NCBI GenBank assembly: GCA_001443455.1
Contig: LDXO01000006.1
Location: 61,029 to 125,028 of the forward strand
Origin: Deltaproteobacteria bacterium CSP1-8
GTDB lineage: Bacteria; Desulfobacterota; Deferrimicrobia; Deferrimicrobiales; Deferrimicrobiaceae
Length of the DNA: 64,000 nucleotides
Direction of reading: 5' to 3'
Shown here piece after piece: positions 6,235 through 39,103 of this stretch. The notes under the pieces are model-generated. The model did no database searches. It was not told where the DNA came from and saw only the letters and a program-made list of their open reading frames with translations. Position 1 is the stretch's first letter; every line of letters starts with the position of its first letter. A program made the translations under genes and the position numbers.

Positions 6235-7597
<1,363 letters not shown>

Positions 7598-7605
<8 letters not shown>

Positions 7606-17225: not shown

Positions 17226-17257
17226 AGAATACTCTATGACTTCCTGAAGAAAATCCT
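17226..17257 (+). promoter_or_regulatory. Paired upstream activator boxes (site A)
   Basis: AGAATACTCT at 17226 and AGAAAATCCT at 17248, start-to-start 22 bp. The pair lies 107 bp upstream of a sigma-54 promoter and is matched at 24.06 and 36.15 kb. Spacing and position fit binding sites for an NtrC-type activator. The rest of 17043-17332 holds no gene. Confidence 0.6.
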
Positions 17258-17332
17258 CTTTCCCCTCAGCGGGGAAAGATCCCACGGCCTAAAAAAAGAG
17301 GATATCCCACAAGAAATCATGGAGTCGCGATT

Positions 17333-17348
17333 TGGCATGGCTGATGCA
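17333..17348 (+). promoter_or_regulatory. Sigma-54 (-24/-12) promoter
   Basis: TGGCATGGCTGATGCA matches TGGCACG-N4-TTGCA with GG-N10-GC exact. Transcription would begin near 17359. That removes the TTG 17332 and ATG 17344 starts of the ORF track from consideration. Confidence 0.65.
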
Positions 17349-17759: not shown

Positions 17760-20240
<2,481 letters not shown>

Positions 20241-20450
20241 AGGTTCGTCTGGAGCCTATCCAGGCCGAAACTTTCACCCCGGCAAGACATCGTTGGAATA
20301 GGGTCGTTTGGGAGGCCTTGCGAGATATCCTCCCGGTGTTTTCCCTTATGAGGCATGGGGTATACGGCAGCATCTCGGCCGCCTTTGCCCGGCGGGAAGC
20401 TGGTTTCCGACTACGGCATGTACAAGAAGAATCATCGGGGTAAAGAACCT

Positions 20451-21887
20451 ATGACGGCTTCTCCATCTCCAACAGGAAGCAAAGCCAGGGTGCTTGGCAT
20501 GGCGCTCAGCGTCATGGTTCTGGGCGGCTGCGCCACGTTTTCCAAGGACGGCGGCTTCGGCGCGGTCGAGCAGATCGCCAGGGAGCGCATCGACAAGGAT
20601 GTGAAATGGCAGCGCGACGACAATCAGCGGGAGAGCGTACAGGCCACGGTGAAGACTCTCCTGGCCTCGCCCCTTTCCGCCGACGCCGCGGTGCAGATCG
20701 CTCTCCTCAACAACCCCGGTTTGCAGTCCACTTATGCCGAGCTGGGCATCGCCGAAGCCGATCTCGTTCAGGCAGGCCGGATGACGAACCCGCACTTCGG
20801 TTATCTGCGGACGTCGGAAGGCGGAGAGCGCAAGCTCGAATGGGCGCTGACCTTTCCGATCGTAGACCTCCTGACCATCCCGATGCGGACCCGGATCGAG
20901 CGCGGTCGTTTCGAACAGGTAAAGCTGGCGGTGGCGAGGGAAATGCTCGACGTCGCGACCGAGACCCGCAAGTCATGGATCGTCGTGGTCGCGGCGGCGG
21001 AGCGTGTTCGCTACCTCGGGCAGGTAAAGCTTGCGGCGGAAGCGTCCGCCGAGCTGGCGAGCCGCATGGAGGCAGCGGGAAACATAAGCCGCCTCCACCG
21101 GATGCGGGAGCAGGTATTCCGCACCGAGACGGTCGCACATCTGGACCGGGCGACGCAGGCAGCGGTGGCAGAGCGCGAGCGTCTGACGCGGCTGATGGGT
21201 CTATCCGGCGGCGACGTCGCCTTCAAGATCCCCGAGCGCCTGCCCGGACTTCCCGCCGGCAAGCCCGAGATCCAGGATCTCGAGGCGCGCGCGATAGCCG
21301 AACGCCTGGACGTCCAGGAGGCGATACGTGAATCCGAGGGCCTCGCCGCGTCGCTCGGCCTCACCCGGGCCACCCGTTTCATCAACGTGCTCGAACTCGG
21401 GCCCGCAGGCACGAAAGAGGATCCCGAGCCGTGGAAGCGCGGTTTCGAAGCGAGCCTGCAGCTCCCCATCTTCGACTGGGGCGGGGCACGCGTGGCCAAA
21501 GCCGAAGCGATCTATATGCAGGCGCTGCACCGCGTTGCCGAGACGGCGGTAAACGCACGCTCGGAAGTGCGCGCGGCTTACTCTGCGTACCACAAAGCGT
21601 ACGACACCGCGATTCGCTACCGCGAAGAGATCTTGCCTCTGCGAAAGGAAATCGCGGAGGAGAACATGCTCCGCTACAACGGGATGCTGATCAGCGTGTT
21701 CGAACTGCTCGCCGATGCGCGCGAACAGATCGGAGCCGTCATCGCCTCCATCGAGGCGCAGCGCGACTTCTGGCTTTCGGAGAGCGGTCTGCAGGCCGCG
21801 TTCAACGGGCCGACGACGGGCAGGCGGGCCACGGCCCGGATGGTTTCCGGCGGAATGCCGCCCGATCCGGCGACGGCCGGGCATTGA
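20451..21887 (+). CDS. TolC-family outer-membrane lipoprotein
   Basis: Outer-membrane channel/efflux factor with a lipobox (VMVLGGCAT) and two OEP repeats, 478 residues. Features include QIALLNNPGLQSTYAELGIA, the long coiled helices, and FPIVDLLTIP. ATG 20451 is chosen to place the lipobox correctly; GGGGTAAAG lies upstream. It sits between the copper ATPase and the multicopper oxidase with no matching adaptor or pump beside it, so it may serve the CusBA system at 29-34 kb or act alone. Codon choice (many GCG/CGC) differs from the flanking genes and agrees with the next two genes, hinting at joint acquisition. Confidence 0.85.
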   Translation: MTASPSPTGSKARVLGMALSVMVLGGCATFSKDGGFGAVEQIARERIDKDVKWQRDDNQRESVQATVKTLLASPLSADAAVQIALLNNPGLQSTYAELGIAEADLVQAGRMTNPHFGYLRTSEGGERKLEWALTFPIVDLLTIPMRTRIERGRFEQVKLAVAREMLDVATETRKSWIVVVAAAERVRYLGQVKLAAEASAELASRMEAAGNISRLHRMREQVFRTETVAHLDRATQAAVAERERLTRLMGLSGGDVAFKIPERLPGLPAGKPEIQDLEARAIAERLDVQEAIRESEGLAASLGLTRATRFINVLELGPAGTKEDPEPWKRGFEASLQLPIFDWGGARVAKAEAIYMQALHRVAETAVNARSEVRAAYSAYHKAYDTAIRYREEILPLRKEIAEENMLRYNGMLISVFELLADAREQIGAVIASIEAQRDFWLSESGLQAAFNGPTTGRRATARMVSGGMPPDPATAGH

Positions 21888-21908
21888 CAATCGACAGGAG
21901 ACCTTCCC

Positions 21909-23207
21909 ATGATAACGCGTCGACAATTCTTTAACGCATCGGCAGCAGCAATGCTCGGTGCTGCGCTGGTGAGCAAAGGGCAGGCGGCGTCGCTGCCGGA
22001 GGCGCCGATCCAGTCCAAGTCCGTAACACAGCCGCCGCTGGTTCCCCCGAACGGCCGGCCCTACCAGCCGGTTGTCACGCTGAACGGATGGACTCTGCCC
22101 TGGCGCACGAAGAACGGCTGGAAGGAATTCCACCTCATCGCCGAGCCGGTCAAGCGAGAAATCGCCCCCGGCATGATGGCCAACCTGTGGGGGTACAACG
22201 GACAGAGCCCCGGCCCGACCATCGAGTGCGTCGAGGGGGACAAAGTGCGCATTTTCGTCACCAACAAGCTGCCCGAGCACACCACGATCCACTGGCACGG
22301 GGTTCTGCTGCCCAACGGAATGGATGGCGTTGGCGGCCTCAACCAGCCGCATATCGCCGCGGGCAAAACCTATGTCTACGAGTTCGTCATGAAGAACTCC
22401 GGCACCTTCATGTACCACCCCCACGCGGACGAGATGGTGCAGATGGCGATGGGCATGATGGGCTTCATCGTCGTGCATCCGAAGAATCCGAACCAGTACC
22501 AGGTCGACCGCGATTTCGTCTTCCTGATCAACGCCTTCGACATCGATCCCGGCAGCTATACGCCGAGGGTCAACACGATGCTCGACTTCAACCTGTGGTG
22601 CTGGAACAGCCGGGTGTTCCCGGGCATCGATCCGCTCGTCGTGCGCAAGGACGACCGCGTAAGGATCCGCATGGGCAACCTCACGATGACCAATCATCCG
22701 ATCCACGTCCACGGGCACAACTTCTCCGTGACGTGCACCGACGGCGGCTGGGTGCAGAAAAGCGCTCAATGGCCCGAGACGACCGTCGACATGCCGATCG
22801 GCGCGCTGCGCGCGATCGAGTTCGTGGCGGATGCGCCGGGGGATTGGGCGTTTCACTGCCACAAGTCCCACCATGTAATGAATGCGATGGGCCATGGCGT
22901 TCCGACGATGATCGGCGTTGACCACCGGGGCGTGGCGGAGAAGATCAACAAGCTGTTGCCCGAGTACATGGTGATGGGCGAGCGTGGCATGGCCGAAATG
23001 GGCGAGATGGAGATGCCGCTGCCCGACAACACGCTTCCGATGATGAGCGGGCAGGGCCCGTTCGGTCCCCTCGAGATGGGGGGAATGTTCACCGTCGTCA
23101 AGATCAGGGAAGGACTGGCCCGCGACGACTACGCGGATCCGGGCTGGTACAAGCACCCGAAAGGCAGCGTCGCCTACGAATGGAAGGGCGACCTTCCTGC
23201 ATCCTGA
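21909..23207 (+). CDS. Tat-exported multicopper oxidase
   Basis: Periplasmic copper oxidase, 432 residues. The twin-arginine signal is TRRQFFNASAAAMLGAALV. All four copper-ligand clusters are present: HWHGV, YHPHADEM, HPIHVHGH and HCHKSHHVMNAMGH. These make a complete T1 plus T2/T3 centre, implying oxidation of Cu(I) or organic substrates as in CopA/CueO relatives. It is followed 18 bp later by the cupredoxin-CusF gene and preceded by the TolC-like gene, all with the same compositional style. The Met-rich stretch MVMGERGMAEMGEMEMPL near the C-terminus is typical of copper-tolerance oxidases. Confidence 0.94.
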   Translation: MITRRQFFNASAAAMLGAALVSKGQAASLPEAPIQSKSVTQPPLVPPNGRPYQPVVTLNGWTLPWRTKNGWKEFHLIAEPVKREIAPGMMANLWGYNGQSPGPTIECVEGDKVRIFVTNKLPEHTTIHWHGVLLPNGMDGVGGLNQPHIAAGKTYVYEFVMKNSGTFMYHPHADEMVQMAMGMMGFIVVHPKNPNQYQVDRDFVFLINAFDIDPGSYTPRVNTMLDFNLWCWNSRVFPGIDPLVVRKDDRVRIRMGNLTMTNHPIHVHGHNFSVTCTDGGWVQKSAQWPETTVDMPIGALRAIEFVADAPGDWAFHCHKSHHVMNAMGHGVPTMIGVDHRGVAEKINKLLPEYMVMGERGMAEMGEMEMPLPDNTLPMMSGQGPFGPLEMGGMFTVVKIREGLARDDYADPGWYKHPKGSVAYEWKGDLPAS

Positions 23208-23225
23208 CCATTGTAAGGAGGAGAT

Positions 23226-23972
23226 ATGAAGCGAACGATCATCGCTTCCGTGCTCGCCGTGGCACTCGTGGTCCCCGCCGGAGTACTGGCCCACGGCGAC
23301 AAACATCATGATAAGCAGGAAGACCGGGCCGACGTGGGCCATGAAGGGGCCCTCGGGAGACCCGGCGATCCCGGCAAGGTTACCCGGAATGTCGAGGTGG
23401 AAATGAGCGACGCGATGCGCTTCAACCCCGAGAGCATCAGGGTGAAACGCGGCGAGACCATCCGTTTCATCGTCAAGAACACCGGCAAGCTGCAGCACGA
23501 GATGGTGCTTGGCACCATCATGGAACTGAAGGAACACGCCGAGCTGATGCGGAAGTTCCCGGAGATGGAACACGCCGATCCCAATCAGGTAAGCGTCGAG
23601 CCCGGCAAGACCGGCGAACTGATCTGGCAATTCACCAACGCCGGCACGTTCGATTTTGCCTGCCTGGTGCCCGGCCATTTCGAGGCGGGCATGGTCGGCA
23701 AGGTCCACGTCGGCCGCGCCGCCGGGACGGACCCCGCCGACAGCGGACAGGCCATGACCGAGGGGCTGGTGAAGAAAGTCGACAAGACTGCAGGCAAAGT
23801 AACCCTCAGCCACGAGCCGATCGCGAATCTGGGAATGCCGAAGATGACGATGATCTTCCGGGTCATCGATCCGGAAATGCTCAACCGGTTGAAGGAAGGC
23901 GACAGGATCCGTTTTGTCGCGGACAAGGTGAACGGCGCGTTTACCGTAATGGAGTTCGAGCCGGCGGAGTAA
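23226..23972 (+). CDS. Cupredoxin fused to a CusF-like copper chaperone domain
   Basis: Exported protein of 248 residues. After the signal peptide and a His/Asp-rich linker (HGDKHHDKQED) comes a cupredoxin with His near LQHEMV and the CxxxH loop FACLVPGHFEAGM, giving type-1 copper ligands. A C-terminal CusF domain follows (EGLVKKVDKTAGKVTLSH, GMPKMTMIF) with the Met/His ligands of CusF. CusF is normally a separate periplasmic metallochaperone feeding CusB. Fusion to a cupredoxin suggests Cu transfer from an electron-transfer or storage domain to the efflux pump. AAGGAGGAG precedes the ATG. Confidence 0.9.
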   Translation: MKRTIIASVLAVALVVPAGVLAHGDKHHDKQEDRADVGHEGALGRPGDPGKVTRNVEVEMSDAMRFNPESIRVKRGETIRFIVKNTGKLQHEMVLGTIMELKEHAELMRKFPEMEHADPNQVSVEPGKTGELIWQFTNAGTFDFACLVPGHFEAGMVGKVHVGRAAGTDPADSGQAMTEGLVKKVDKTAGKVTLSHEPIANLGMPKMTMIFRVIDPEMLNRLKEGDRIRFVADKVNGAFTVMEFEPAE

Positions 23973-24059: not shown

Positions 24060-24089
24060 CGAATACTCCCCACCCCTGGAGAATATTCT
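24060..24089 (+). promoter_or_regulatory. Paired upstream activator boxes (site B)
   Basis: CGAATACTCC at 24060 and the perfect palindrome AGAATATTCT at 24080 (start-to-start 20 bp). The pair lies 120 bp upstream of the sigma-54 promoter at 24180 and corresponds to sites at 17.2 and 36.1 kb. Confidence 0.6.
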
Positions 24090-24179
24090 TCACGGCATCG
24101 GCTTCCGGGGGAAATACGTCCCGGGAGTTTCCTGTCGCACTTCCCCGATACCATTCGGATTTTGGATTCTCCGGCCGAA

Positions 24180-24195
24180 TGGCACGGGAAGTGCT
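24180..24195 (+). promoter_or_regulatory. Sigma-54 (-24/-12) promoter
   Basis: TGGCACGGGAAGTGCT: a perfect TGGCACG element and GC at the -12 position with exact GG-N10-GC spacing. The predicted start is near 24206, 27 bases before the DUF2318 gene. Confidence 0.7.
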
Positions 24196-24232: not shown

Positions 24233-24805
24233 ATGACGAATACCGCAGGACGAAACGAGACAACGCATGAGACCTCGAAAGGAGTAGACGGCGGATTCCG
24301 CCCCGGAGGCGGGAAGGGGAACCGCCTCTTTCTAATAACAATGGTCCTCCTCCTGGGGACGGGCACGGTCGTTGCGGCGGGATGGTTCGGCGGTATCTTC
24401 AAGAACACCCCCGCGGACAACGCGAGGGTTGCGGGCGTGGTCGAATCGGCGGATGCCGTGAGGATTCCCCTTTCGGCCCTTGATTCCGGGAAAGCGCTCT
24501 TTCTCGAGACGGACCTGGAGGGAAGACAGGTCCATTACTTCGCGGTGAAGAGCTCGGACGGTGTTTACCGGGCCGCCTACGACGCCTGCGACGTCTGTTT
24601 CCGGGCGAACCGTGGATACCGGCAGGAAGGCGATCTCATGGTGTGCAACAAATGCGGCCAGGCCTTTCCGAGCGTGAAGGTCAACGAGGTCAAGGGGGGG
24701 TGCAACCCGGCGCCACTTGCCAGGATAGTCGATGGCCAGTCCCTGGTGATCCGGAAGGGCGACCTCGCGGCCGGGAAGGATTACTTCCCCGGGAAGCGGT
24801 CGTAA
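24233..24805 (+). CDS. Membrane-anchored DUF2318 (FtrD-like) Cys-rich protein
   Basis: 190 residues with one N-terminal membrane anchor (LFLITMVLLLGTGTVVAAGW). A periplasmic DUF2318 domain follows, carrying CDVCFRANRGYRQEGDLMVC and CNKCGQAFPS and a final Cys (GGCNP). These cysteines probably bind metal or an Fe-S centre. In FtrABCD iron systems the equivalent domain (FtrD) takes part in Fe(II) handling. ATG 24233 has GGAGGG upstream and lies just after the sigma-54 start; the track's GTG lies within the promoter. It is first in an operon with an FtsX-like permease and a LolD-like ATPase. Confidence 0.85.
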   Translation: MTNTAGRNETTHETSKGVDGGFRPGGGKGNRLFLITMVLLLGTGTVVAAGWFGGIFKNTPADNARVAGVVESADAVRIPLSALDSGKALFLETDLEGRQVHYFAVKSSDGVYRAAYDACDVCFRANRGYRQEGDLMVCNKCGQAFPSVKVNEVKGGCNPAPLARIVDGQSLVIRKGDLAAGKDYFPGKRS

Positions 24806-24821
24806 CCGGACCGGGCGGAAA

Positions 24822-25973
24822 ATGAATATACGCAAACTGGCCTGGAAGAACCTGTTCCGGAGGAAGTCCCGTGCGGTGTTCACCGGCCTCGGGATCTTCC
24901 TCGGGATCGGGACGTTCGTCGCCCTCTCCTCCCTCACCATGCAGATGGAAGGGGCGGTGCGCGACAAGCTGGACCGGTTCGGGGCGAATATCCTCGTCGT
25001 TCCCCGGACGGAACAGCTATCGCTGGGGTTCGGCGACATCGCCCTGGGGGGCGCGCAGGTCGCCCGCGCAAGGCTGGCCGTATCCGATGGTGAGGCGATC
25101 CGCTCCATCGAACTGAAAGACCGCCTCCGGTCGGTCGTTCCCTTCTTCCTCACGGCGACCGACGCCTCCGGGAAGGACGTCGTGTGGATGGGTCTTCCGG
25201 CCGAAGAGATCGCCGTCGCGCGCCCCTGGTGGAAGGTATCGGGGATGCTTCCCATGGAGAAGGGAGAGGTACTCTTAGGCTCCGAGGCAGCCGCACTCCT
25301 GGACAAGGGACCCGGGGGGACCGTTCTCTCCGGCGGCCGTAAATTCCGCGTCGCCGGTGTCCTGTCCCCGACGGGGGAGAAGGAGGATTCGATGGTGATC
25401 GCCCCCATCGGAGACGTGCAGGCGCTCGCGGGGAGCCCCGGCGGTGTGACCTTCTTCGAGATCGCCGCCCTGTGCAAGGATTGTCCCGTCGAGGACATCG
25501 TGGCACAGATCGGGAAAGCCCTTCCCGGCGCGCGAGTCTCCGCCATCCGGCAGGTTGTGGAAAGCAGGAAGGCGGCCGTTGACCAGTTCCGGCGGCTGGG
25601 CATGGCCGTCTCGGCCATCGTTCTCGCCATCGGGGGCCTGATGGTGTTCGTAACCGTCATGGGGAGCGTCCAGGAGCGGACGCGGGAGATCGGCGTCCTG
25701 CGCGCCGTCGGGTTCCGGCGGCGCGCCATCGTTTCCCTCCTCTTCTGGGAGACGGGGTGGGTCTCCCTCCTCTCGGCGGTTTCCGGCGCCGTTCTCGGGA
25801 CGGCGGCGGCGTGGCTCGCCTCGCCCCTTTTCGGCGTGGCGAGGACGGAGGCTGCCGTTACCCCGGCGGTGATCGGCGTGGTCATCGGCATGGCCCTTGG
25901 CTTCCTGGGAAGCGTTCCCCCCGCCCGTCGGGCGGCCGCCCTCTCGCCGACAGAAGCAATCCGCAGTCTTTGA
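24822..25973 (+). CDS. MacB/FtsX-type ABC transporter permease
   Basis: Inner-membrane protein of 383 residues with the MacB layout. An N-terminal helix (RAVFTGLGIFLGIGTFVALS) is followed by a periplasmic MacB-core domain of about 220 residues and three C-terminal helices with the FtsX stretch EIGVLRAVGFRRRAIVSLL. It pairs with the ATPase 15 bp downstream. Association with DUF2318 suggests handling of a metal or reduced thiol rather than lipoproteins or macrolides; this is inference from context. Confidence 0.88.
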   Translation: MNIRKLAWKNLFRRKSRAVFTGLGIFLGIGTFVALSSLTMQMEGAVRDKLDRFGANILVVPRTEQLSLGFGDIALGGAQVARARLAVSDGEAIRSIELKDRLRSVVPFFLTATDASGKDVVWMGLPAEEIAVARPWWKVSGMLPMEKGEVLLGSEAAALLDKGPGGTVLSGGRKFRVAGVLSPTGEKEDSMVIAPIGDVQALAGSPGGVTFFEIAALCKDCPVEDIVAQIGKALPGARVSAIRQVVESRKAAVDQFRRLGMAVSAIVLAIGGLMVFVTVMGSVQERTREIGVLRAVGFRRRAIVSLLFWETGWVSLLSAVSGAVLGTAAAWLASPLFGVARTEAAVTPAVIGVVIGMALGFLGSVPPARRAAALSPTEAIRSL

Positions 25974-25988
25974 TCGAAGGAGAAGAGG

Positions 25989-26705
25989 ATGGATCCCTTC
26001 ATCGAATTGGACAACGTCTCGATGCTGTACGGCAGCAACGGGACGATCGCGGCGGCGTTGCGCGGGGTCTCCTTCTCGATCGCCGCAGGGGAGTATGTGG
26101 CGATCACGGGCGAGTCGGGGGCGGGGAAGAGCACGCTCCTTACTCTTCTCGGCGGTTTGCAGGTTCCCACGTCCGGGAGGGTCGTCATGGGGGGGATCGA
26201 CCTTTCGGGGCTTTCTGCCGACGGCCTCGCCGACTTTCGGAAGCAGACGATCGGGTTCGTCTTCCAGGCATACCACCTCCTGCCGTATCTCACGGCCCGC
26301 GAGAACGTGATCGTTCCCCTCTCCCCCGAGAGAATGAGCTCCCGGGAAAAGGCGGACCGGGCGGACGGGCTCCTCGAAACCGTGGGGCTTTCGGGGAAGG
26401 AAAACCGGCTGCCCTCGGAGCTGTCGGGAGGAGAGTGCCAGCGGGTGGCGATCGCCCGTGCCCTTGTGCACGACCCCGCCGTCCTGCTCGCGGACGAGCC
26501 TACCGGGAACCTGGACACGACGACGGGGGAGCAGATCCTGGACCTGTTTTCCGAATGGCACGGAAGGGGAAAGACCGTGCTGATGGTCACCCACAACCGG
26601 GCCAACCTGTCCCGTGCGACGCGGACCGTCCGTCTGCGCGACGGACTGGTGGAGGAGGACCGGCGCATGTCGCCGTCCGGCCGGGCGATGGGATTGCCCG
26701 GTTGA
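25989..26705 (+). CDS. MacB/LolD-type ABC transporter ATP-binding protein
   Basis: 238-residue ATPase with Walker A GESGAGKST, Q-loop FVFQAYHLLPYL, signature LSGGECQRVA, Walker B VLLADEPTGNLDT and switch His (MVTHNRANLS). It is the partner of the preceding FtsX-type permease. GAAGGAGAAGAGG precedes the ATG. It is a complete NBD of the LolD/MacB group and probably works as a mechanotransmission rather than an import ATPase. Confidence 0.9.
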   Translation: MDPFIELDNVSMLYGSNGTIAAALRGVSFSIAAGEYVAITGESGAGKSTLLTLLGGLQVPTSGRVVMGGIDLSGLSADGLADFRKQTIGFVFQAYHLLPYLTARENVIVPLSPERMSSREKADRADGLLETVGLSGKENRLPSELSGGECQRVAIARALVHDPAVLLADEPTGNLDTTTGEQILDLFSEWHGRGKTVLMVTHNRANLSRATRTVRLRDGLVEEDRRMSPSGRAMGLPG

Positions 26706-26736
26706 ATGCCGGCAAAGACCTTGGGAGGAGGAACGG

Positions 26737-27012
26737 ATGGAGGGGAAACACGACAGGGAAGGAAGGGAAGAGAGGGATTTGCTTGCGGAAAATGTACCGG
26801 CGAGGGATGCTGATCCGAATGGTCTGCCCGCCCACTCGCCTTCCTGGCGGGGGCTGGTAGTTGCCGTTATCGCGGCGGCCAGCCTTTCGGTGGCCGCAAC
26901 GCTGTTGCTCGGGGGATCGTTCGGACCCGGCAGGGCGAATTCGGCAGTGGGATGCGGTCCCGGAAGCGCATGCTGCCCTCCCGCGGGGGAACAGATAAAG
27001 ACCGCGAAATGA
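26737..27012 (+). CDS. Small membrane protein with Cys-rich tail
   Basis: 91 residues: an acidic cytoplasmic head, one transmembrane helix (LVVAVIAAASLSVAATLLLG) and a short tail ending VGCGPGSACCPPAGEQ, with three cysteines likely outside the membrane. ATG 26737 has AGGAGG. It belongs to the DUF2318-ABC operon by spacing. I recognise no family; a metal-binding accessory role is a guess from the Cys tail. Confidence 0.6.
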   Translation: MEGKHDREGREERDLLAENVPARDADPNGLPAHSPSWRGLVVAVIAAASLSVAATLLLGGSFGPGRANSAVGCGPGSACCPPAGEQIKTAK

Positions 27013-27085
27013 CCGGACGAACGGGAGAGGGTCTGCCGGTCTGGCTCTTTGGGTGGGAACGACAATACGACAGGAGGAACGGGAA

Positions 27086-27595
27086 ATGAGGAAGAAGGGA
27101 TTTCCGGTGGTTCTCGTAGCTGTTCTGGCGTTTTTGGCTTTGCCATGGGCGTCCTTTGCCGGCGACAAGGGGCATGGGTCGATGCCCGGGATGAAGGGCG
27201 AGGGCTCGATGGAAGGACACGGGATGATGAAGATGGGAGACAAGATCTTCGGCGGGGAGATCGGCCCCTGGCAAACCGAGGCGCGCCTCGTCGACATGAA
27301 GGCCCAGATGGAAAAATCGAAGGTCTCGGAAAAGATGAAGGCCATGATGAAGAACACGCACCACATCGCGTTTTCCCTCGAGGATCCGGTCGCGAAAAAG
27401 CCTGTTACCGAGGGAAAGGGGACGGTGGCGGTAATCGGCCCCGACAAGAAGGAAGCGACGTACAACCTGACGGGGATGGAGGGACACTTCGGCGCGGACA
27501 TCACCCTGGACAAGCCGGGGAAATACGAGTTCTCGGTCCAGATCGAGGCGGGCGGTAAGAAGGGGGCCGCGAAGTTCGCACACGAGCTCAAGTAG
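27086..27595 (+). CDS. Secreted Met/His-rich YtkA/FixH-like protein
   Basis: 169 residues with a signal peptide ending ASFA, then a Met/Gly/His-rich linker (GHGSMPGMKGEGSMEGHGMM) typical of periplasmic copper binders. The C-terminal beta-sandwich domain resembles YtkA/FixH-type domains. AGGAGG precedes ATG 27086; the track start 33 bases upstream is not supported. It closes the sigma-54-driven DUF2318 operon. A role as periplasmic metal or thiol partner of that system is inferred. Confidence 0.6.
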   Translation: MRKKGFPVVLVAVLAFLALPWASFAGDKGHGSMPGMKGEGSMEGHGMMKMGDKIFGGEIGPWQTEARLVDMKAQMEKSKVSEKMKAMMKNTHHIAFSLEDPVAKKPVTEGKGTVAVIGPDKKEATYNLTGMEGHFGADITLDKPGKYEFSVQIEAGGKKGAAKFAHELK

Positions 27596-27648
27596 CAAAC
27601 CCCGCATCCGAGGCGTGGCACGAACGGGGTCTCGAAGGGACCGGAAAC

Positions 27649-27882
27649 CATGGCAATAAGACTGCCGACCTTCCTGGTCGCGCTGCTCGTTTTCCCGGGA
27701 TTTGCCGCCCCCCGTCCGATTCCTGGTTGGCCGTTCCTCTCGCCTACGCTTCGGTTTCTCTGCTGAATCGGGATTACGGCGTCCCTTCGAGGGAGACCCG
27801 CCGGCTCCCCGCACATGGATTCGTCAGGATGGAGATCATCCCGGCGGGGTTGCCTCCGGGGTTCGACAGGATGTTGTTGTAA
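27649..27882 (+). pseudogene. Possible frameshifted small secreted protein
   Basis: ATG 27649 opens a signal-peptide-like segment (RLPTFLVALLVFPGFAA). After about 28 codons coding character moves to another frame (SWLAVPLAYASVSLLNRDYG ... PPGFDRMLL), which ends at TAA 27882. Joined by one frameshift this would be a small exported protein of about 77 residues. The family is unknown. The remainder of the 380-bp gap 27596-27977 shows nothing else, apart from a GG-N10-GC match at 27651 with no activator boxes. Confidence 0.3.
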
Positions 27883-27977
27883 GCAACGGACGGACAGGGT
27901 ACGAATGATCGACCAAGGGACGTTCAGCAACGGCCCGGCAAAATTCGCCGGAAACCCGTGCGAAAGGGGGTGCGGAG

Positions 27978-29285
27978 GTGAAAACGGAAAGACGGGATCA
28001 AGCCAGCGGGACGGCTGCGTCGCGGCTGGCCGGCGTTCTGCTGTTCCTCTGCGCATGCTTCGCGGCAGTATATGTCACGGCCGGGGAAGCCCCCGTCCCG
28101 GCGGGCTACTACATCAGAGAGGCCCTGTCGGGGAACCCTTCCCTGGCCTCCATGGGGGAGCGCATCCGGATGAAGGAGAACGCGGCGGTCCGTGCCGGGG
28201 CGTTCGATGACCCGAAGGCCTGGATCGGGCTCTCGAACGTGCCCATCGAGACGTGGTCGTTTCGCGACGAGGACATGAGCGGAAAGGAGATCGGTGTCTC
28301 CCAGATGTTCCCCTACCCGGGCAAGAGGAAGCTCAAGACCGATATTGTCGCGCGGGAGCGGGAACAGGCGGGTTATGACCTGGAGGAAATGAGGAGCATG
28401 CTCCGTTCCGAGGTGAAAATGACCTATGCGGAACTCGCCGCCGTGCGGCGGCAGGCGGAGGTGGTGCGCCGCACCCGGGACGTCCTTCGGGACATCGTGG
28501 GGATTGCGCAGGAGTTGTACTCCGTCGGCCGGGGAAGCCAGCCCGACGTGCTCCGGGGACAGGTCGAGTCGGGGAAGATGCGCGAGATGCTGCTCATGCT
28601 CGAGAACCGGGAGAAGGTCCTGTCGGTCCGTCTCAACACCCTGGCGGCCCTGCCCCCGGACCGGCCGGTCCCGGATCTTTTTGAACTCTCCGAGTTTCCC
28701 CTTCCCTTCCGGCCGGAGGAACTGATGGCGGCCTACCGGGAGGACCGTCCGGCCCGAAAGGCGTTCCGGGCACGGGTCGCCCGGGGGGAGGCCCAGGTGG
28801 CGATGGCCAGGCGGGAGTTTTACCCGGACTTCGAAGTATCGGTATCCTACATGCAGAGGGATTCCATGCCGGACGGGACGAAGCGGTCCGATATGGTCAC
28901 CTCCATGCTGCTGATGAACATTCCCGTGTGGAGAAAGGCGAAGCTCGACCCCGCCATCCGGGAGATGACCGCGGAGCGGGAGATGGCGGCCCGCGAGCTG
29001 GACGCCCTGGACCTGGCGACCTCGAACGAGATCGGGCGGATCCTTGCCACGCTCGGGAACCGGGCGGCCGTGGCCGTCCTGTACCGGACGACGCTCATCC
29101 CGCAGGCCGAACAGTCGTTCCGCGCGAACGTCGAGTCCTACGAGGTGGGAAAGATCGACTTCCCGATGCTCATGGATTCGGTGATGACGGTCCTCTCCTT
29201 CCGCAAGGAGTACTCCGGGATGGTGGGCGAGATGCACATGGAGAAGGCCAGGCTGGAAGCGGCCGTGGGAAGAGAGCTGAACTGA
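27978..29285 (+). CDS. Outer-membrane efflux protein of a heavy-metal RND system (CusC-like)
   Basis: TolC-family channel of 435 residues with a signal segment (LAGVLLFLCACFAAVYVTA) and paired OEP domains (REALSGNPSLASMGERI; FPYPGKRKLKTDIVARE). It precedes CusB and CusA homologues with short spacing, completing a tripartite pump. A GTG start is used, next to a GGGGGTGCGGAG tract. No lipobox Cys follows the signal, unlike E. coli CusC. Confidence 0.85.
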   Translation: MKTERRDQASGTAASRLAGVLLFLCACFAAVYVTAGEAPVPAGYYIREALSGNPSLASMGERIRMKENAAVRAGAFDDPKAWIGLSNVPIETWSFRDEDMSGKEIGVSQMFPYPGKRKLKTDIVAREREQAGYDLEEMRSMLRSEVKMTYAELAAVRRQAEVVRRTRDVLRDIVGIAQELYSVGRGSQPDVLRGQVESGKMREMLLMLENREKVLSVRLNTLAALPPDRPVPDLFELSEFPLPFRPEELMAAYREDRPARKAFRARVARGEAQVAMARREFYPDFEVSVSYMQRDSMPDGTKRSDMVTSMLLMNIPVWRKAKLDPAIREMTAEREMAARELDALDLATSNEIGRILATLGNRAAVAVLYRTTLIPQAEQSFRANVESYEVGKIDFPMLMDSVMTVLSFRKEYSGMVGEMHMEKARLEAAVGRELN

Positions 29286-29316
29286 TGGCGAATGGGCCGC
29301 GAGGCCCGAACGGGGG

Positions 29317-30906
29317 ATGATCGTGGGCGAAGAGCGCGAGGAAAGGATTCCGGGGGAGAAAAACGGCGCACCCGGGGAGGGAAAGGGGAGGGACGTGTCC
29401 CGGAAGGCCGCGTGGGGAATTGCTCTGCTGCTGGCCCTGCTCTGGGCGGGGACGATGGCGTTCTACAACGTGCCCGCCTTCCACCAGTGGCTCCACCCGC
29501 ACCCGGCGGAAGGGACCGTCGGCACCGCGGAGGAGTCGGGGAAGTACACCTGCCCGATGCACCCGTTCATCGTCACCGACCGGCCCGGCGCCTGCCCCAT
29601 CTGCGGAATGACGCTGGTGCTGCAATCGAGCATGGCGGCCGCCGCCGCGCCGGATAACGCTGCCCCGGCGAAGAAGGAGCGGAAGATCCTGTACTGGACC
29701 GACCCGATGATCCCCGGCGACCGCAGCGACAAGCCGGGGAAATCGCCGATGGGGATGGAGCGCACCCCGGTATACGAAGACGAAGCGATCGGCATGGTGG
29801 CGATGAACCCGACGCAGCGGCTGATGGCGAACGTGGCAACGGAGATGGTGGCGAGGCGAAACTTCGTTCTGGACACCACCGCCGTCGGGAAAATCTCGTG
29901 GGACGAGCGCAGGATGGCCAAGGTGTCCGCCAGGATCGGCGGGAGGGTCGAGAGGCTGCACGTGGATTTCACGGGAACGGGGGTTACGCGCGGACAGCCG
30001 CTCCTGGAGATCTATTCCCCCGAACTGATCGCGACGCAGCGGGAGTATCTTTTGGCCATCGAGGGGATGGAGCGGATGAAGGGAAGCCCATACGAGGACG
30101 CAAGATCCATGTCGGCGGGTCTCCTCGACGCCTCCCGGAGACGGCTTGCGCTGTGGGGCGTCACCGGCGCGCAGATCGAAGGGCTGGAGAGGACGAAGGA
30201 GCCGGCGACCGTCTTCACCGTTTCCGCCCCGGCGTCCGGCATCGTCACGGAACGGCTCGTGGCGGCGGGGCAGTACGTGATGGAGGGAACCCCGCTGTAT
30301 TCGATTGCGGAGATCGATCCGGTCTGGGTCCAGGCGGAGATCTACGAGGCCGAGATCCACAAGGTGCCCGTGGGCACCCCGGCCGTCGTCACGACCGAAG
30401 CCTACCCGGGGAGGGAGTTCAAAGGGCTCGTGGCGTTCGTGGATCCTTTTCTTAACCCCGAGACCCGTACGGTCAAGGTGCGGATCAACCTCCCCAATCC
30501 CGGCAGTCTGCTCAAGCCCGACATGTTCGCCAACGTCCTGTTCAAGGGGAGGAAGGGGAAGGAGCTGGCGGTGCCCGATTCGGCCGTGCTCATCACCGGC
30601 GAGCGCGCGATGGCATGGGTGGAGGTGAAGCCGAACACCTTCGAACCGCGGATGGTCAAGGTGGGCCACAAGTCGAACGGGTATTACGAGCTCCTGTCGG
30701 GGCTCAAGGAAGGCGAAACGGTCGTGACCTCGGCCGGGTTCCTGATCGACTCGGAGAGCCAGCTCAAGAGCGGCCAGTCGGATCCTCACGCGGGGCATGG
30801 GGGCGCGGAGGGCCCGAAGCAGACGCCGAAGGAAAGCTCCGCTCCCGCGCCATCGTCTCGGGGCGCCGCCGGGGAAGACGGTCATGCCGGGCACGGCGGA
30901 AAGTAA
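29317..30906 (+). CDS. CusB-like periplasmic adaptor with metal-binding domains
   Basis: Membrane-fusion protein, 529 residues. An N-terminal anchor is followed by a CPMHP heavy-metal-binding domain (YTCPMHPFIVTDRPGACPIC). A YWTDPMIPGDRSDKPGKSPM motif typical of CusB follows, then barrel-sandwich and beta-barrel domains (GRVERLHVDFTGTGV; MFANVLFKGR). The tail is His/Gly-rich (DPHAGHGG ... GHAGHGGK). It delivers metal and couples CusA to CusC in the periplasm. The extra His tail adds metal-binding capacity not found in E. coli CusB. It lies 18 bp before cusA. Confidence 0.92.
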   Translation: MIVGEEREERIPGEKNGAPGEGKGRDVSRKAAWGIALLLALLWAGTMAFYNVPAFHQWLHPHPAEGTVGTAEESGKYTCPMHPFIVTDRPGACPICGMTLVLQSSMAAAAAPDNAAPAKKERKILYWTDPMIPGDRSDKPGKSPMGMERTPVYEDEAIGMVAMNPTQRLMANVATEMVARRNFVLDTTAVGKISWDERRMAKVSARIGGRVERLHVDFTGTGVTRGQPLLEIYSPELIATQREYLLAIEGMERMKGSPYEDARSMSAGLLDASRRRLALWGVTGAQIEGLERTKEPATVFTVSAPASGIVTERLVAAGQYVMEGTPLYSIAEIDPVWVQAEIYEAEIHKVPVGTPAVVTTEAYPGREFKGLVAFVDPFLNPETRTVKVRINLPNPGSLLKPDMFANVLFKGRKGKELAVPDSAVLITGERAMAWVEVKPNTFEPRMVKVGHKSNGYYELLSGLKEGETVVTSAGFLIDSESQLKSGQSDPHAGHGGAEGPKQTPKESSAPAPSSRGAAGEDGHAGHGGK

Positions 30907-30924
30907 TCCGGGAAGGACGACGCG

Positions 30925-33900
30925 ATGATCAACGGAATCATTTCCGCCTGCCTCAAGAACCGGTTCCTGACGATCCTGGGGAGCGTCGTCATCCTGCTGT
31001 GGGGGATCTGGGCGCTCCTGCGGACACCGGTGGACGCCATCCCGGACCTCTCCGACAACCAGATCATCGTCTACACGATGTGGGAGGGTCGGTCCCCCCA
31101 GATCATCGAGGACCAGGTCACGTACCCGCTGGCGACGAACCTCCAGGGTCTGCCGCACGTCCGGGCGGTCCGTTCCACGACGATGTTCGGCGCGTCGATG
31201 ATCTACGTGATCTTCGAGGACAAGGTGGACCTCTACTGGGCGCGCAGCCGCGTGCTGGAGCGGCTGAACCAGCTCGGGGACCGGATGCCCAAGGGGGTCA
31301 CCCCGGTGCTGGGTCCCGACGGCACGGGGGTCGGCCACGTCTTCTGGTATCACCTCAAGAGCGACAGGCACGACCTGGGCGAAATGCGAGCCATCCAGGA
31401 CTGGTACCTGCGGTATCCCCTCCAGGCGGTTTCGGGCGTGGCCGAAGTGGCCTCCATCGGCGGGTTCGTGAAGCAGTACCAGGTCGATCTCGACCCGGTG
31501 AAACTTCTGGCCTACCGCGTTCCCGTCAAGGCGGTCACCCAGGCGGTGTCCATGGCGAACCGCGAGGTGGGCGGCAACGTCATCGAGGAAAACGCGATGG
31601 AGTACCAGGTCCGCGGCCGGGGATATCTCCGGTCGAAGGAGGACGTGGAAAACATCGTCGTCGGCACCTCGCTTTCCGGGACACCCATTTATGTGAAGAA
31701 CCTGGGGGTCGTCCAGATGGGCGGGGCTTCACGCCGCGGGCTCCTCGACGTCAACGGCGAGGGGGAGGTCGCCGGCGGGATCATCGTCATGCGGTACGGC
31801 GAGAACGCCCAGAAGGTGATCGAGCGGGTCAAGGTGAAGCTTGCCGAGCTTGCCCCGGGGCTTCCTCCCGGCGTGACGGTCGAGACGTCCTACGACCGCA
31901 GCGATCTCATCCAGAAGGCGATCGACACCCTCAAGGGCGCGTTGATCGAGGAGGTGATCCTCGTCACGCTGGCGCACATCGTCTTCCTGTGGCACTTCCG
32001 GTCGATCCTGATCGTGACCTCGCCGCTGCCGCTGGCCATCCTGGTCTCCTTCATCTTCATGCACTACGTGGGGCTCAATTCCAACATCATGAGCCTGGGG
32101 GGGATCGCCATCGCCATCGGCGTGCTGGTCGACGCGGGGATCGTGATGACGGAAAACGTGATCCGCCACGCCGAGCAGCACGGCGAGGGGTACGAGAAGA
32201 ACATCCTCTCCATCACCGAAAAGGCCGCCCACCTGGTCGGCCGGCCGATCTTCTACGCCATGGCGATCATCATCCTGGCGTTCGTCCCGGTCTTCGCCCT
32301 GACCGGCCTGGAAGGGAAGATGTTCCATCCCCTGGCCTTCACCAAGACGTTCGCGATGGTGGGCTCCACCTTCATCGCGGTCACGCTCGTGCCCGTCCTG
32401 TGCTCGTTCCTTGTCCGCGGCAAGCTGCACAAGGAAGAGGACAACTGGACAATGAAGTACCTGATGAAGGCGTACAAGCCGGCGCTCAACTGGGCGCTTG
32501 ACAACCGGAAGAAGACGGTGGCGATCGCCGCGGCCCTGTTCTCGATCGCAATCGTCATGGTGACTCGCATCGGCAGGGAGTTCATGCCTCCGTTGAACGA
32601 GGGGAGCCTGCTCTTCATGCCGGTGACCCTGCCCAACATCTCGATCAACGAGGCGAAGCGGCTCATCACCATCCAGGACAAGATCATCAAGGAGACCCCG
32701 GAGGTGGAGCACGTCCTGGGGAAAGTGGGCCGGGCCGAGACCTCCACCGACCCCTCCCCCGTCTCCATGTTCGAGACGATCATCCTGCTCAAGCCCAAAG
32801 ACAAGTGGCGCAAGGGGATGACCCAGGAGAAGCTCATCGGCGAGTTGAACGCCAGGCTCCAGATCCCCGGAGTGGGCAACGGCTGGACGATGCCGATCAT
32901 CAACCGGATCAACATGCTCTCCACGGGCGTCCGGACCGACCTTGGGGTCAAGATTTACGGGGACGACCTCAACCAATTATCGGACCTTGCGGTCACGGCC
33001 GGCGAGGTCCTCAAGAACGTGCCGGGAGCGGTGGACGTGGTCGCCGAGCGGACATTGGGGGGGACCTACCTCGACATTGTCCCCGACCGGGAAGCGGCCG
33101 CGCGGTATGGCCTCAACGTGGACGACATCAACGACGTGATCGAGACGGTCCTCGGCGGCATGCCGGTGACCAACACCATCGAGGGGCGGCAGCGCTTCCC
33201 CGTCCGGGTCCGTTTCCTGTGGGACTACCGGCAGGACATCGAGAAGATCAAGCGGATCCCGATCCCCAGGGGACCCGTGGTGAGCGCCTCGGCCGCTCCC
33301 GCATCCGCTCCCGCGGGCGGCGGAGGGGGGATGGGCCAGGGCGGCGGGGGCGGGGCCCCCATGGGAAGCGGGGGCGGGCAGATCACCCTCGGCCAGGTGG
33401 CGAAGATCTCCGTCTCCCCCGGACCGGCGATGATCAGCGCGGAGAACTCCTTCCTGCGGTCGGTCGTGTTCCTGAACGTGCGGGGGCGGGACATGGGGCG
33501 GTTCGTCGACGAGGCGAAGGAGTACCTGGCGAAGAACCTGAAGCTCCCGCCAGGATACTTCGTCGAGTGGTCGGGGCAGTACGAGAACCAGATCCGGGCG
33601 AAGAAGACGCTCCAGGTCGTGGTGCCGATGGTGTTCCTCATCATCTTCGTGATGCTCGTCATGGTCTACCATTCGGTGAAGGAGGCGCTCAACGTGATCC
33701 TGGCGGTGCCGTTCGCCCTGACCGGCGGGGTCTATCTCCTCTATTTCATGGGATACAACTTTTCGGTCGCCGTGTGGGTCGGGTTCATCGCCCTCTTCGG
33801 GACGGCGGTCCAGACCGGCGTCGTGATGGTGATCTACCTGGAGGAGGCGGTGGAGCGGGTCAGAAGCCGGGACGGGAGCCTCACCCGGGAGAACCTTCGT

Positions 33901-34131
33901 GAGGCGGTCGTGGAGGGGGCGCTCCTTCGGCTGCGCCCCAAGGTCATGACCGTCTCCACCGTCGTGGCGGGGCTATTGCCGATCTTCTGGAGCACCCGGA
34001 CGGGATCGGAGGTGATGAAGCCGCTGGCGACGCCGGTGCTGGGAGGGATGGTGTCCTCGCTCCTTTTCGTCCTCGTGGTCACCCCCGTTACCTTTCTGTG
34101 GCTTCGCGAGCGGGAGCTGAAAAAGGCGTAA
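30925..34131 (+). CDS. CusA-type heavy-metal RND efflux pump
   Basis: Inner-membrane proton-driven HME-RND pump, 1068 residues, 12 transmembrane segments and two large periplasmic loops. Hallmarks include [40 protein letters not shown], the TM4 [19 protein letters not shown] and [18 protein letters not shown] Gly-rich insertion of about 30 residues ([20 protein letters not shown]) lies in the second periplasmic domain near residue 800. It exports Cu+ or Ag+ with CusCB. A terminator-like hairpin lies about 200 bp downstream. Confidence 0.94.
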
Positions 34132-36148: not shown

Positions 36149-36180
36149 AGAATACTCTTCGTTCTCCTTGAGAAAATTCT
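36149..36180 (+). promoter_or_regulatory. Paired upstream activator boxes (site C)
   Basis: AGAATACTCT at 36149, identical to site A, and AGAAAATTCT at 36171, start-to-start 22 bp. The second box sits in the inverted repeat TGAGAA-N5-TTCTCA. The pair is 108 bp upstream of the sigma-54 promoter at 36257. Confidence 0.62.
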
Positions 36181-36256
36181 TCTCAGGCGGTATGCCTCCC
36201 GGATCTTTCAAATTGTAACGTGTTGATATGTTGGTGGTTTTGTTGCTTTGGGCGAG

Positions 36257-36272
36257 TGGTACGCCCTATGCA
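36257..36272 (+). promoter_or_regulatory. Sigma-54 (-24/-12) promoter
   Basis: TGGTACGCCCTATGCA matches the consensus with exact GG-N10-GC spacing. The predicted start near 36283 leaves a leader of about 54 nt before the repeat-protein gene. Confidence 0.65.
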
Positions 36273-36336: not shown

Positions 36337-36738
36337 ATGAAAAGAAAATCCTTTATGGGAGCAGTAGTGCTGGGTGCGCTCCTCGTCGTATTCGCGGGGA
36401 TCTCACAGGCAGGGGGGGTCATGCACAAGTCGAGCGGGGACGAGAGACCTTCGGTGAAGACCACTTCCCAGGAATTCTCGTTCGCAGAATTCGGAGAGGG
36501 CGGACCGTCCTACGAGTACTGGGAGGCATTGGAAACCGGTTCCAAGTCGAGCGGGGACGAGAGACCTGCGGTGGAGACCACATCCCAGGAATTCTCGTTC
36601 GCGGAATCCGGAGAGGGCGGACCGTCCTACGAGTACTGGGAGGCGTTGGGAACCGGTTCCATTTCAAGTTCGGGCGTGAGCAACCGCTTGCTGGATACCG
36701 GTGTGGATCCGTCCCGGTGGGAGGGACCTACGCAATAG
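36337..36738 (+). CDS. Small secreted tandem-repeat protein (EYW family, copy 1)
   Basis: 133 residues: a signal peptide (SFMGAVVLGALLVVFAGISQ), then two consecutive 39-residue units starting KSSGDERP and ending PSYEYWEALETGS, and a short tail with SRWEGPTQ. No Cys is present; Asp, Glu, Ser and aromatic residues dominate. ATG 36337 follows GGGAGG; the track start lies before the predicted transcript. It is driven by its own activator boxes and sigma-54 promoter and closed by a strong terminator. I know no family for it. The protein at 37.3 kb is a paralogue by signal peptide and repeat motif. A periplasmic or extracellular stress-induced role is inferred from regulation only. Confidence 0.65.
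   Translation: MKRKSFMGAVVLGALLVVFAGISQAGGVMHKSSGDERPSVKTTSQEFSFAEFGEGGPSYEYWEALETGSKSSGDERPAVETTSQEFSFAESGEGGPSYEYWEALGTGSISSSGVSNRLLDTGVDPSRWEGPTQ
36427..36660 (+). repeat. 117-bp tandem duplication inside copy 1
   Basis: Two adjacent 117-bp units (36427-36543 and 36544-36660) differ at about 7 positions, mostly single substitutions that keep the frame. It is a recent in-frame duplication. Confidence 0.85.
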
Positions 36739-36798
36739 GGGAACAGAGAAATCGTGTTCGAGTCGGTCGATCTGGGGTTGTAACCAACGTTGATTGAC

Positions 36799-36856
36799 AG
36801 AATGGGCCGGCCCGGGAGAGAGTGGTTACACCTCCCCGGGCCGGCCCATTCTTTTT
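36799..36856 (+). terminator. Rho-independent terminator of copy 1
   Basis: An 18-bp perfect stem (AGAATGGGCCGGCCCGGG and its complement) is followed directly by TTTTT. Very strong for a single small gene. Confidence 0.85.
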
Positions 36857-36953
36857 CCGGTCCGAGATACCCCATGCCCCAGATAGGAAATGCTCTTTAT
36901 CGCCTTCCTGAAAACTCGCTGGTTGCGGCGAACCCCGTCATCACCGATTGTAT

Positions 36954-36969
36954 ATTACAATATTGTAAT
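36954..36969. promoter_or_regulatory. 16-bp perfect palindrome, operator-like
   Basis: ATTACAATATTGTAAT is fully self-complementary and lies in an AT-rich patch 100 bp after the terminator. The TACA...TGTA core recalls BlaI/CopY-type operators, but the spacing differs. It may control the remnant leader at 37.05 kb or the gene at 37.3 kb. Confidence 0.45.
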
Positions 36970-37043
36970 GCTAACTTTTCGCTTTTTCCGGAGGTTGATG
37001 CGTCTGTTGCCAACTATGTCCTGAAACGGATCGGTACCGAAGG

Positions 37044-37079
37044 AAAAAGAAACAGGGGAGGAATCGAGATGAAATATTA
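37044..37079 (+). other. Orphan gene leader resembling that of copy 1, with a three-codon ORF
   Basis: AAACAGGGGAGGAATCGAG precedes ATG AAA TAT TAG. The leader copies the copy-1 leader (AAACAAAGGGAGGTTTCGAG) closely, but the reading frame stops after three codons. It looks like the decayed start of a third family member. No other gene is visible in 36857-37292. Confidence 0.35.
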
Positions 37080-37292
37080 GGGTTGTGACGGGTGTGGCGG
37101 TGGTCCGGTTGGCGGATCTGATCGTAGGGAAGGTGTTCAATATATATCGCAAATTGAGAATGTTCGACCAGGGAGAGAAGGGCGCCTCCAGGAATTTTCC
37201 TCCCCGAAGAATCTCTCTTCCATTGCTATCATCATAGCCTTAAATAAGAGGCGCTGTCATTAACGGCTAATGTAATCTAGGGGGGGAAAAGC

Positions 37293-37646
37293 ATGATAAG
37301 GAATTCCTTTATAGGGGTCGTATTGCTTGGAGCTTTTCTCGTCGTATTTGCGGGAATCTCACATGCAGGGGGAATGATGCATCAATCGAGCGGCGATGAA
37401 AAACCTGTGGGGGAGGCGATGGTCCCCGCATCCCCGCAATTCGGAACCTGGGAATACTGGTTGGCGGAGGAAACCGGGACCCTGCCGGGTCCGGAAGCGA
37501 GGAGCGGGCCGGCGGAGCAGGCGGCAGAGCCCGCGTCGCCGCAATTCGGAACGTGGGAATATTGGCTGGCGGAGGAAACCGGGACCTTGCCGAGTCCGGA
37601 CTCGAGCAGCCACTCGTCGGAGATTGTCGAGAGACCGGATTGGTGA
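37293..37646 (+). CDS. Small secreted tandem-repeat protein (EYW family, copy 2)
   Basis: 117 residues. The signal peptide SFIGVVLLGAFLVVFAGISH and the following GGMMHQSSGDEKP align with copy 1 almost throughout. The body holds two units of PASPQFGTWEYWLAEETGTL joined by a Pro/Ala/Glu linker (35-residue period). The shared core with copy 1 is an EYW triplet followed by an acidic ETG turn. No Cys. GGGGGGGAAAAGC precedes ATG 37293. It has its own terminator. No sigma-54 site or activator boxes could be found upstream, so it may be regulated differently. Family unknown. Confidence 0.65.
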   Translation: MIRNSFIGVVLLGAFLVVFAGISHAGGMMHQSSGDEKPVGEAMVPASPQFGTWEYWLAEETGTLPGPEARSGPAEQAAEPASPQFGTWEYWLAEETGTLPSPDSSSHSSEIVERPDW

Positions 37647-37858: not shown

Positions 37859-39103
37859 GTGTTGCGCGACATTCCCAGAACCTTCCGGTCTGTCCTCTGT
37901 CTGGTGCCTTTTCTGTGCCTGGTATGCGGCGCGGTTCCCGGCCATGCCGAATTCGCGAGGGAACCACTCCCATCGGATTGGCGCGGAGACGATGCCCTGG
38001 CCGCCCTTGCCCGCCTGCCCGACGAAGAGATTCCCCTCGGGAAAACCCTTGTCATGGCATCTTCCCTGCTGGGAGCGGAACTGACCGGCGTCCCTGCGGA
38101 TCCTGTCGCCGTCGAGAAAGAAATCACCCGTCTCTCAGATTCGGTCCGTCCCGCCCTCCGGGACAGGAGCAACCCGCGCAGGGTCATCGCCGCCCTGAAC
38201 CGGTTCCTGTTCGTCGAGGAGGGATTCACCTACGACTGCGTCGCGGGGAATCCCGACAATTATCTTTTGGACCGGGTGATGAAAAACAAACGAGGGAACT
38301 GCCTCGGGTTGACGACGCTCTACCTCCTTCTGGCCGAGCGGCTTTCCCTGCCGCTCCACGGGGTGTACGTTCCATCCCACTGCTTCGTCCGGTACGAGGA
38401 CGCGGGGGTGCGAATCAACATCGAGACGGGGGAGAAGGGGGCCGATCGGGACGAGGGGCGGTATTCCCGTGATTTCGGGCTCACGGGGGGAAGGCCCTAC
38501 CTGCGATCCCTCGGCCGGAAAGAGATGATCGGGGTGTACCTCAAGAGCCTGGGCGCCGCCTTCTCCCGGAAAGGGATGGAAGATCGGGCGCTTCGCCTCT
38601 ACCGGGAAGCGGCGGTTTTCTACCCGGGTCTCCCCGACGCCTATTTTAACGCCGGGGTCTCCTTCCACAAGAAGGGATTGCTCGACGAGGCCATCGCGCA
38701 ATACCGGCGGGCCTTGGAACTCGACCCCGACCTCGCCATGGCGCGAGACAACATCGGGGTGGCCCTGGCGAAAAAAGGACGGTATGGGGAGGCCCTCGCG
38801 GAGGTGCGCAAGGCGGTGGCCTTGAGTCCCCGCAATCCCGTCACCCGGGCAAACCTCGCGGCCAGCTTGTGCGCCAGCGGGATGGTGGAGGACGGCATCC
38901 GGGAGTACCGCAAGGTTCTCGAGATCGATCCGGACAACGCGAGGGCGCTGGCCGGCCTGACAAACGCCTATTACGCCCGCGGGCAATTCCACGAGGCGAT
39001 CGTCCATTGCGACAGGGCACGGGAGATGGGGTGCAACTTCGACCCCGCCATGCTGGGGACTCTCGAGAAATACCGAGACCCTTCCCCCGCGTCGCTCCCC
39101 TGA
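37859..39103 (+). CDS. Exported transglutaminase-like protein with TPR repeats
   Basis: 414 residues. A signal segment (SVLCLVPFLCLVCGAVPGHA) precedes a SirB1/transglutaminase-like core with the Cys motif NKRGNCLGLTTLYLLLAERL and catalytic-type His in VPSHCFVRYE. At least four TPR units follow from about residue 225 (YFNAGVSFHKKGLLDEAIAQ, DNIGVALAKKGRYGEALAEV). Such proteins act in periplasmic protein interaction or processing; the substrate is unknown. GTG 37859 is the start in the track; TTG 37862 is adjacent. It is monocistronic and convergent with the DUF169 gene. Confidence 0.8.
   Translation: MLRDIPRTFRSVLCLVPFLCLVCGAVPGHAEFAREPLPSDWRGDDALAALARLPDEEIPLGKTLVMASSLLGAELTGVPADPVAVEKEITRLSDSVRPALRDRSNPRRVIAALNRFLFVEEGFTYDCVAGNPDNYLLDRVMKNKRGNCLGLTTLYLLLAERLSLPLHGVYVPSHCFVRYEDAGVRINIETGEKGADRDEGRYSRDFGLTGGRPYLRSLGRKEMIGVYLKSLGAAFSRKGMEDRALRLYREAAVFYPGLPDAYFNAGVSFHKKGLLDEAIAQYRRALELDPDLAMARDNIGVALAKKGRYGEALAEVRKAVALSPRNPVTRANLAASLCASGMVEDGIREYRKVLEIDPDNARALAGLTNAYYARGQFHEAIVHCDRAREMGCNFDPAMLGTLEKYRDPSPASLP

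Follow-up and report, generated by a model that had tools for sequence, protein, structure and literature searches.

P0001 and P0002, paired exported proteins of a copper island, as apparent members of an unnamed, lineage-restricted family

Judged from sequence comparison, the neighboring genes P0001 and P0002 encode diverged members of a previously unnamed, lineage-restricted and fast-changing family of exported proteins, and the two probably serve as helpers, so far undescribed, in the handling of copper. Both lie in the window, as we call the whole 64,000-nucleotide stretch of DNA analyzed here (contig C6; Table 1). Proteins of the family are small, acidic, exported and, by prediction, mostly disordered, with the constant core W/Y-x(n)-(P/A)VETGxLP.

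Table 1. Positions in the window of the two genes, their promoter and the copper-island features discussed
Feature	Position	Strand	Remarks
NtrC-type response regulator	6235..7605	+	Response_reg, Sigma54_activat, HTH_8; candidate activator
Histidine kinase	7598..8752	+	paired with the NtrC-type regulator; Pfam
Enhancer 17227 and sigma-54 box 17333	17227..17348	+	before His-rich 48-aa ORF and CopA ATPase
Copper ATPase, OEP, multicopper oxidase, cupredoxin-CusF	17760..23972	+	Pfam
Enhancer 24061 and sigma-54 box 24180	24061..24195	+	before FtrD-ABC-CusCBA
FtrD-like, FtsX/ABC, small Met/His-rich protein, CusC, CusB, CusA	24233..34131	+	Pfam
Enhancer dyad GAATACTC-N14-GAAAATTC	36150..36179	+	putative site of the NtrC-type regulator
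IHF-like site TATCAACACGTTA	36216..36228	-	between enhancer and promoter
Sigma-54 -24/-12 box TGGTACGCCCTATGCA	36257..36272	+	80 nt before the P0001 ATG
P0001	36337..36738	+	133 aa; family member, ETG unit duplicated
P0001 signal peptide	36337..36411	+	25 aa; cleavage guessed after SQA (by inspection)
P0001 tandem copies, 2 x 117 bp	36424..36657	+	around YEYW..ETG/GTG
P0001 intrinsic terminator	36799..36852	+	dG -51.4, z -8.1, then U-rich UUCUUUUU
Possible decayed third family gene and decayed promoter	36888..37110	+	between P0001 and P0002 (inferred)
P0002	37293..37646	+	117 aa; family member with two WEYW..ETGTLP units
P0002 signal peptide	37293..37367	+	by inspection
P0002 tandem copies, 2 x 105 bp	37410..37619	+	repeat alignment
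Stem-loop after P0002	37684..37735	+	dG -39.9, z -4.2, poor U tract
Exported Transglut_core2 and TPR protein	37859..39103	+	frequent downstream neighbor of the family

A conserved core and sporadic repeats

P0001 and P0002 have the start GG(V/M)MH(K/Q)SSGDE(R/K)P in common, and over the signal-peptide region and the next dozen residues they are identical at 88 of 114 nucleotides; the open reading frames and positions that the earlier note had assigned to them held. Repeat alignment also bore out its two-copy units with an EYW...ETG core. The P0001 unit spans 39 residues, and its copies are identical at 110 of 117 nucleotides in the best register, in line with a proposed 117-bp duplication with about seven differences; the P0002 unit spans 35 residues (84 of 105 nucleotides identical). 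In both genes this identity is far above chance. Since both period and sequence differ between the two genes, the duplications are independent. We detected no further copies of P0001 or P0002 elsewhere in their own 2.18-Mb genome.

The tandem repeat itself is not the family trait that the earlier note had taken it for. Most homologues carry a single ETG-LP unit; thus, the EYW-ETG core, and not the repeat, is the conserved heart of the family, and the repeats of P0001 and P0002 are local elaborations. Unit duplication is sporadic, affecting the core in P0001, P0002 and G014a and the tail in G011a. In relative G011, the member at L095 8504-8821 has a 20-residue tandem duplication of the C-terminal hairpin, independent of the window repeats.

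We defined the family by a Sec-type signal peptide, a mature part of ~50-150 aa and the core W/Y..(P/A)VETGxLP; P0002 has all three, and P0001 has ETGSKS, without LP. A typical member of 83-115 aa consists of a signal peptide, an acidic linker, the core, a spacer and the final E-x-G-G-x-x-Y-R-x-G-I-D. The fuller form of the core is (W/F/Y)-x(3-5)-(P/A)-V-E-T-G-x-L-P, in which G never varies and T and P hardly do; this ETG-P core is near-invariant and the remainder of the protein drifts. The C-terminal GGxxYRxGID hairpin is usual in the family, not obligatory: it is lost in P0001, P0002 and the G003 member, with RLLDTGVDPSRWE standing in place of the tail in both P0001 and the G003 member, and the G007 member has DPRWE where the hairpin is expected.

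P0002 served as the first query, followed by profile A2, built on the unit, profiles A5 and A7, built on single-unit relatives, and profile A10, built on the core. These searches found members in most genomes of the window's taxonomic family, two of them in the Deltaproteobacteria MAGs NC_groundwater_1812 and FeB_35. Among 395 genomes of the phylum, which the earlier note had proposed to search with the repeat unit, they found members only in that taxonomic family and none outside it. Inspection of the same slot where the profile was silent added members in G007, G015, G020 and G023, as well as further ones in G005 and G009, and the core profile then confirmed the same-slot members of G007, G015, G023 and G005. 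The expectation that these proteins belong to no known family agrees with Pfam and NCBIfam, in which neither P0001 and P0002 nor any of 24 relatives had a significant match, as well as with the profile search of the PDB and the tblastn search of plasmids, which gave no match. The family, the motif and the enhancer described below are absent from the resources searched, and an earlier account in the subscription literature is possible.

Several candidates were left out. CbtB (TIGR02459) scored 19 bits against a cut-off of 64.4, with the match confined to the signal-peptide stretch; the GAEDW repeat proteins L007, L008 and L012 (G001/G002) are alike only in leader and signal peptide and are not in copper islands; and the weak profile matches L102 and L104 have no copper linkage. 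Proteins with a similar signal peptide and leader and with PSFGAEDWVPPQGE-type repeats, outside copper islands, are found at L046 9711-10128 and also at L012 and L007 (G002, G001); they are possible distant paralogues.

A sigma-54 promoter and the copper islands

Upstream of P0001 an enhancer dyad, an IHF site and a sigma-54 box follow in the order of a full sigma-54 promoter. The IHF consensus WATCAANNNNTTR is found once in the window, at 36216-36228, and TAACATGTTGATA is also present upstream of the homologue G016a. The sigma-54 consensus alone, with 2 mismatches allowed, is no more frequent in the window than chance predicts; unlike the box alone, the box paired with the enhancer exceeds chance. 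We found exactly three sites for the enhancer pattern GAATACTC-N10..14-AGAAnATYCT in the 2.18-Mb genome, all within the window, with 106-119 nt from the start of each site to the start of the sigma-54 box after it; this bears out the activator boxes that, in the earlier note, P0001 has in common with copper genes. P0002 has neither enhancer nor sigma-54 box upstream and lies behind the strong terminator of P0001. The claim that each gene has its own strong terminator stood for P0001; the stem after P0002 is stable, but its U tract is poor.

Across 24 genomes of the taxonomic family (about 57 Mb), the enhancer pattern had 7 matches, all 7 of which are before copper genes or P0001, and a reversed control pattern had 0 matches in the same genomes. 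Because this count takes in the window sites from which the pattern was derived, the cross-genome matches are the independent part. In a scored search, 10 of the 25 members linked to islands had the enhancer dyad with a sigma-54 box upstream. Of the 280 called genes, high scores went otherwise only to FtrD operons, two regulators and one gene of a copper island. In about 15 linked members, no promoter of their own is recognizable, some of these being downstream in clusters. Comparative genomics, combining enhancer, sigma-54 box and gene neighborhood in many genomes, argues strongly that the family belongs to the copper regulon, as the earlier note had suspected of the pair; within the pair, the copper promoter is confined to P0001. 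The enhancer as defined would predict the whole copper regulon of the lineage.

A single NtrC-type regulator is encoded in the window, together with a kinase (6235-8752), and the regulator-kinase-Nramp trio recurs in the copper islands of relatives. By proximity and class only, this regulator (6235-7605) may be the protein that binds the dyad. The Nramp transporter after the pair (8749-12018) is a fusion with a universal stress protein domain and is 1089 aa long.

Between P0001 and P0002, the stretch 36888-37110 has an enhancer-like sequence at 36888, a box-like TGATGCGTCTGTTGCC at about 36996 and an RBS with ATGAAATATTAG at about 37069. Here GGGGAGGAATCGAG-ATGAAATATTAG is similar to the P0001 start region, and the degenerate enhancer and box are at the usual spacing. 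The score of the relic promoter at 36888 is by itself not above background and no better than that of several spurious sites; a decayed third gene is therefore only a suggestion. Three intact family genes occupy the matching slot in G010 and G011. On the opposite strand, a gene for a cytochrome c'-like protein (35535-35978) adjoins P0001, and genes similar to it have been retained close to the family slot in G003, G005, G007, G008 and G009.

Pfam served to identify the island genes of the window. Family members, P0001 and P0002 included, lie in or beside copper islands with CusCBA, CopA, FtrD-ABC and multicopper oxidase genes, and typically upstream of one transglutaminase/TPR gene. In a common order, CusCBA is followed by a small exported protein rich in Met/His, HD-GYP, one to three genes of the family, the transglutaminase/TPR gene and a Crp regulator; this order is found in whole or in part in the window, G003, G005, G008-G012, G014 and G016 (several contigs are short). 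Co-occurrence with CusCBA, suggested earlier as a check, was borne out by the family slot after CusCBA in many relatives' islands. Members adjoin the CopA ATPase in G006, G018 and G019 and a sigma-54 NtrC-type regulator in G005, G006, G008 and G014.

This arrangement raises the alternative that the family proteins are substrates or partners of the neighboring exported transglutaminase-like/TPR protein, with the copper link being secondary, as the TPR gene is directly 3' of the family slot in many genomes. We regard this as very unlikely, given that members beside CopA (G018, G019) or a regulator have no TPR neighbor, that in G001 the slot and its TPR gene are present with no family member in the slot, and that the enhancer ties the family to copper operons.

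Two other small proteins of the window deserve mention. The exported protein at 27053-27595 has a Met/His-rich start (GHGSMPGMKGEGSMEGHGMMKMGDKIF) and no Pfam match. Proteins related to it are found again next to CusCBA in the islands of related genomes, and it seems to represent a further unnamed family of the copper islands. The first gene after the enhancer at 17227 is a 48-aa membrane ORF with CCGGHGDHDH (17419-17565).

Disorder, metal ligands and a proposed docking role

The structure prediction proposed in the earlier note gave AF2 models (n=2) whose confident parts are the signal helix and the C-terminal hairpin of the typical member; confidence is low elsewhere, which is consistent with the family proteins being mostly disordered. 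A small disordered exported repeat protein beside CusCBA, with its own promoter and terminator and with VMH/MMH after the cleavage site (in P0001 and P0002), might be a metal sponge that binds and buffers periplasmic Cu as SilE and PcoE do; the ligands would be the acidic/aromatic units or the MMH/VMH start. However, no His, Met or Cys column of the mature part is conserved among 24 members, and for that reason a SilE-like sponge is disfavored. Furthermore, the mature family proteins have 0-3 His, 0-5 Met and mostly no Cys, whereas SilE/PcoE have about ten His and at least ten Met (PMC5008109). We consider the sponge unlikely.

Selection keeps a short motif and the export signal across the family, along with the copper promoter of many lead genes; that the proteins are exported and fast-evolving, as anticipated, is supported. 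With modest confidence, we favor an account in which these are exported accessory proteins of the copper regulon, controlled by the regulator, that dock through the ETG-LP motif on an envelope partner. Copper stress would be sensed by the kinase (7598-8752), resulting in phosphorylation of the NtrC-type regulator (6235-7605), which would in turn open the P0001 promoter. The protein would then be exported to the periplasm and stay mostly unfolded and acidic, and its linear motif, W/Y...(P/A)VETGxLP, might dock onto a partner in the envelope copper machinery in an accessory role. The unit duplications in P0001 and P0002 would provide more docking sites. The docking role is suggested by conservation of the motif alone.

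A periplasmic accessory that tunes the copper-sensing kinase, as ZraP does in the sigma-54 ZraSR system, would have the same regulatory logic, and four members adjoin regulator-kinase genes (L041, L042, L044, L098). Nevertheless, most members are far from a kinase gene, there are up to 3 members per slot, and no ZraP model in Pfam or NCBIfam matched any of the 24 members, making such a feedback peptide improbable. A docking accessory protein is the most economical reading, of which ZraP-like kinase feedback would be a special case. More tentatively, these proteins may represent a new copper-response class without conserved soft-metal ligands, namely disordered secreted peptides that dock by repeated ETG-LP units on efflux or signalling machinery and expand by gene and unit duplication.

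The family would add to bacterial copper resistance a component that has no name yet and can be tested, in an uncultured lineage that has been little studied. It also shows that accessory envelope proteins can change fast while a short motif and a promoter stay, and for this reason such proteins escape family databases.

Comparison with known systems

Small periplasmic proteins induced by copper or other metals are known already (SilE, PcoE, ZraP), and the ETG-LP family itself is in none of the resources searched. ExtJ (NF040942) of Geobacter, likewise a small exported protein, was rejected as a relative, as only the signal peptide matched (residues 1-27, E 0.07) and the mature parts are unrelated. 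Like SilE and PcoE, the family proteins are small, exported and disordered, with repeated units, and adjoin CusCBA-type efflux genes. In contrast to them, the family has no conserved His/Met motifs and has a sigma-54 type promoter; the conserved ETG-LP core is not a SilE feature, and we found no sequence similarity.

ZraP is an ordered oligomeric chaperone. Its gene is activated by the sigma-54 regulator ZraR (PMC7657598). With the role proposed for the family, ZraP shares small size, a periplasmic accessory function and control by an NtrC-type regulator in a metal or envelope response; the family differs in being mostly disordered and in lying in a copper island. In Myxococcus xanthus, the CorSR two-component system exerts sigma-54 control over copper genes and regulates the curA copper operon, likewise with an NtrC-type sigma-54 regulator and kinase, a multicopper oxidase and a copper ATPase (PMC3707914). 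Members of the present family, however, were detected only within the window's taxonomic family, and the likeness to CorSR is one of regulator class and controlled genes.
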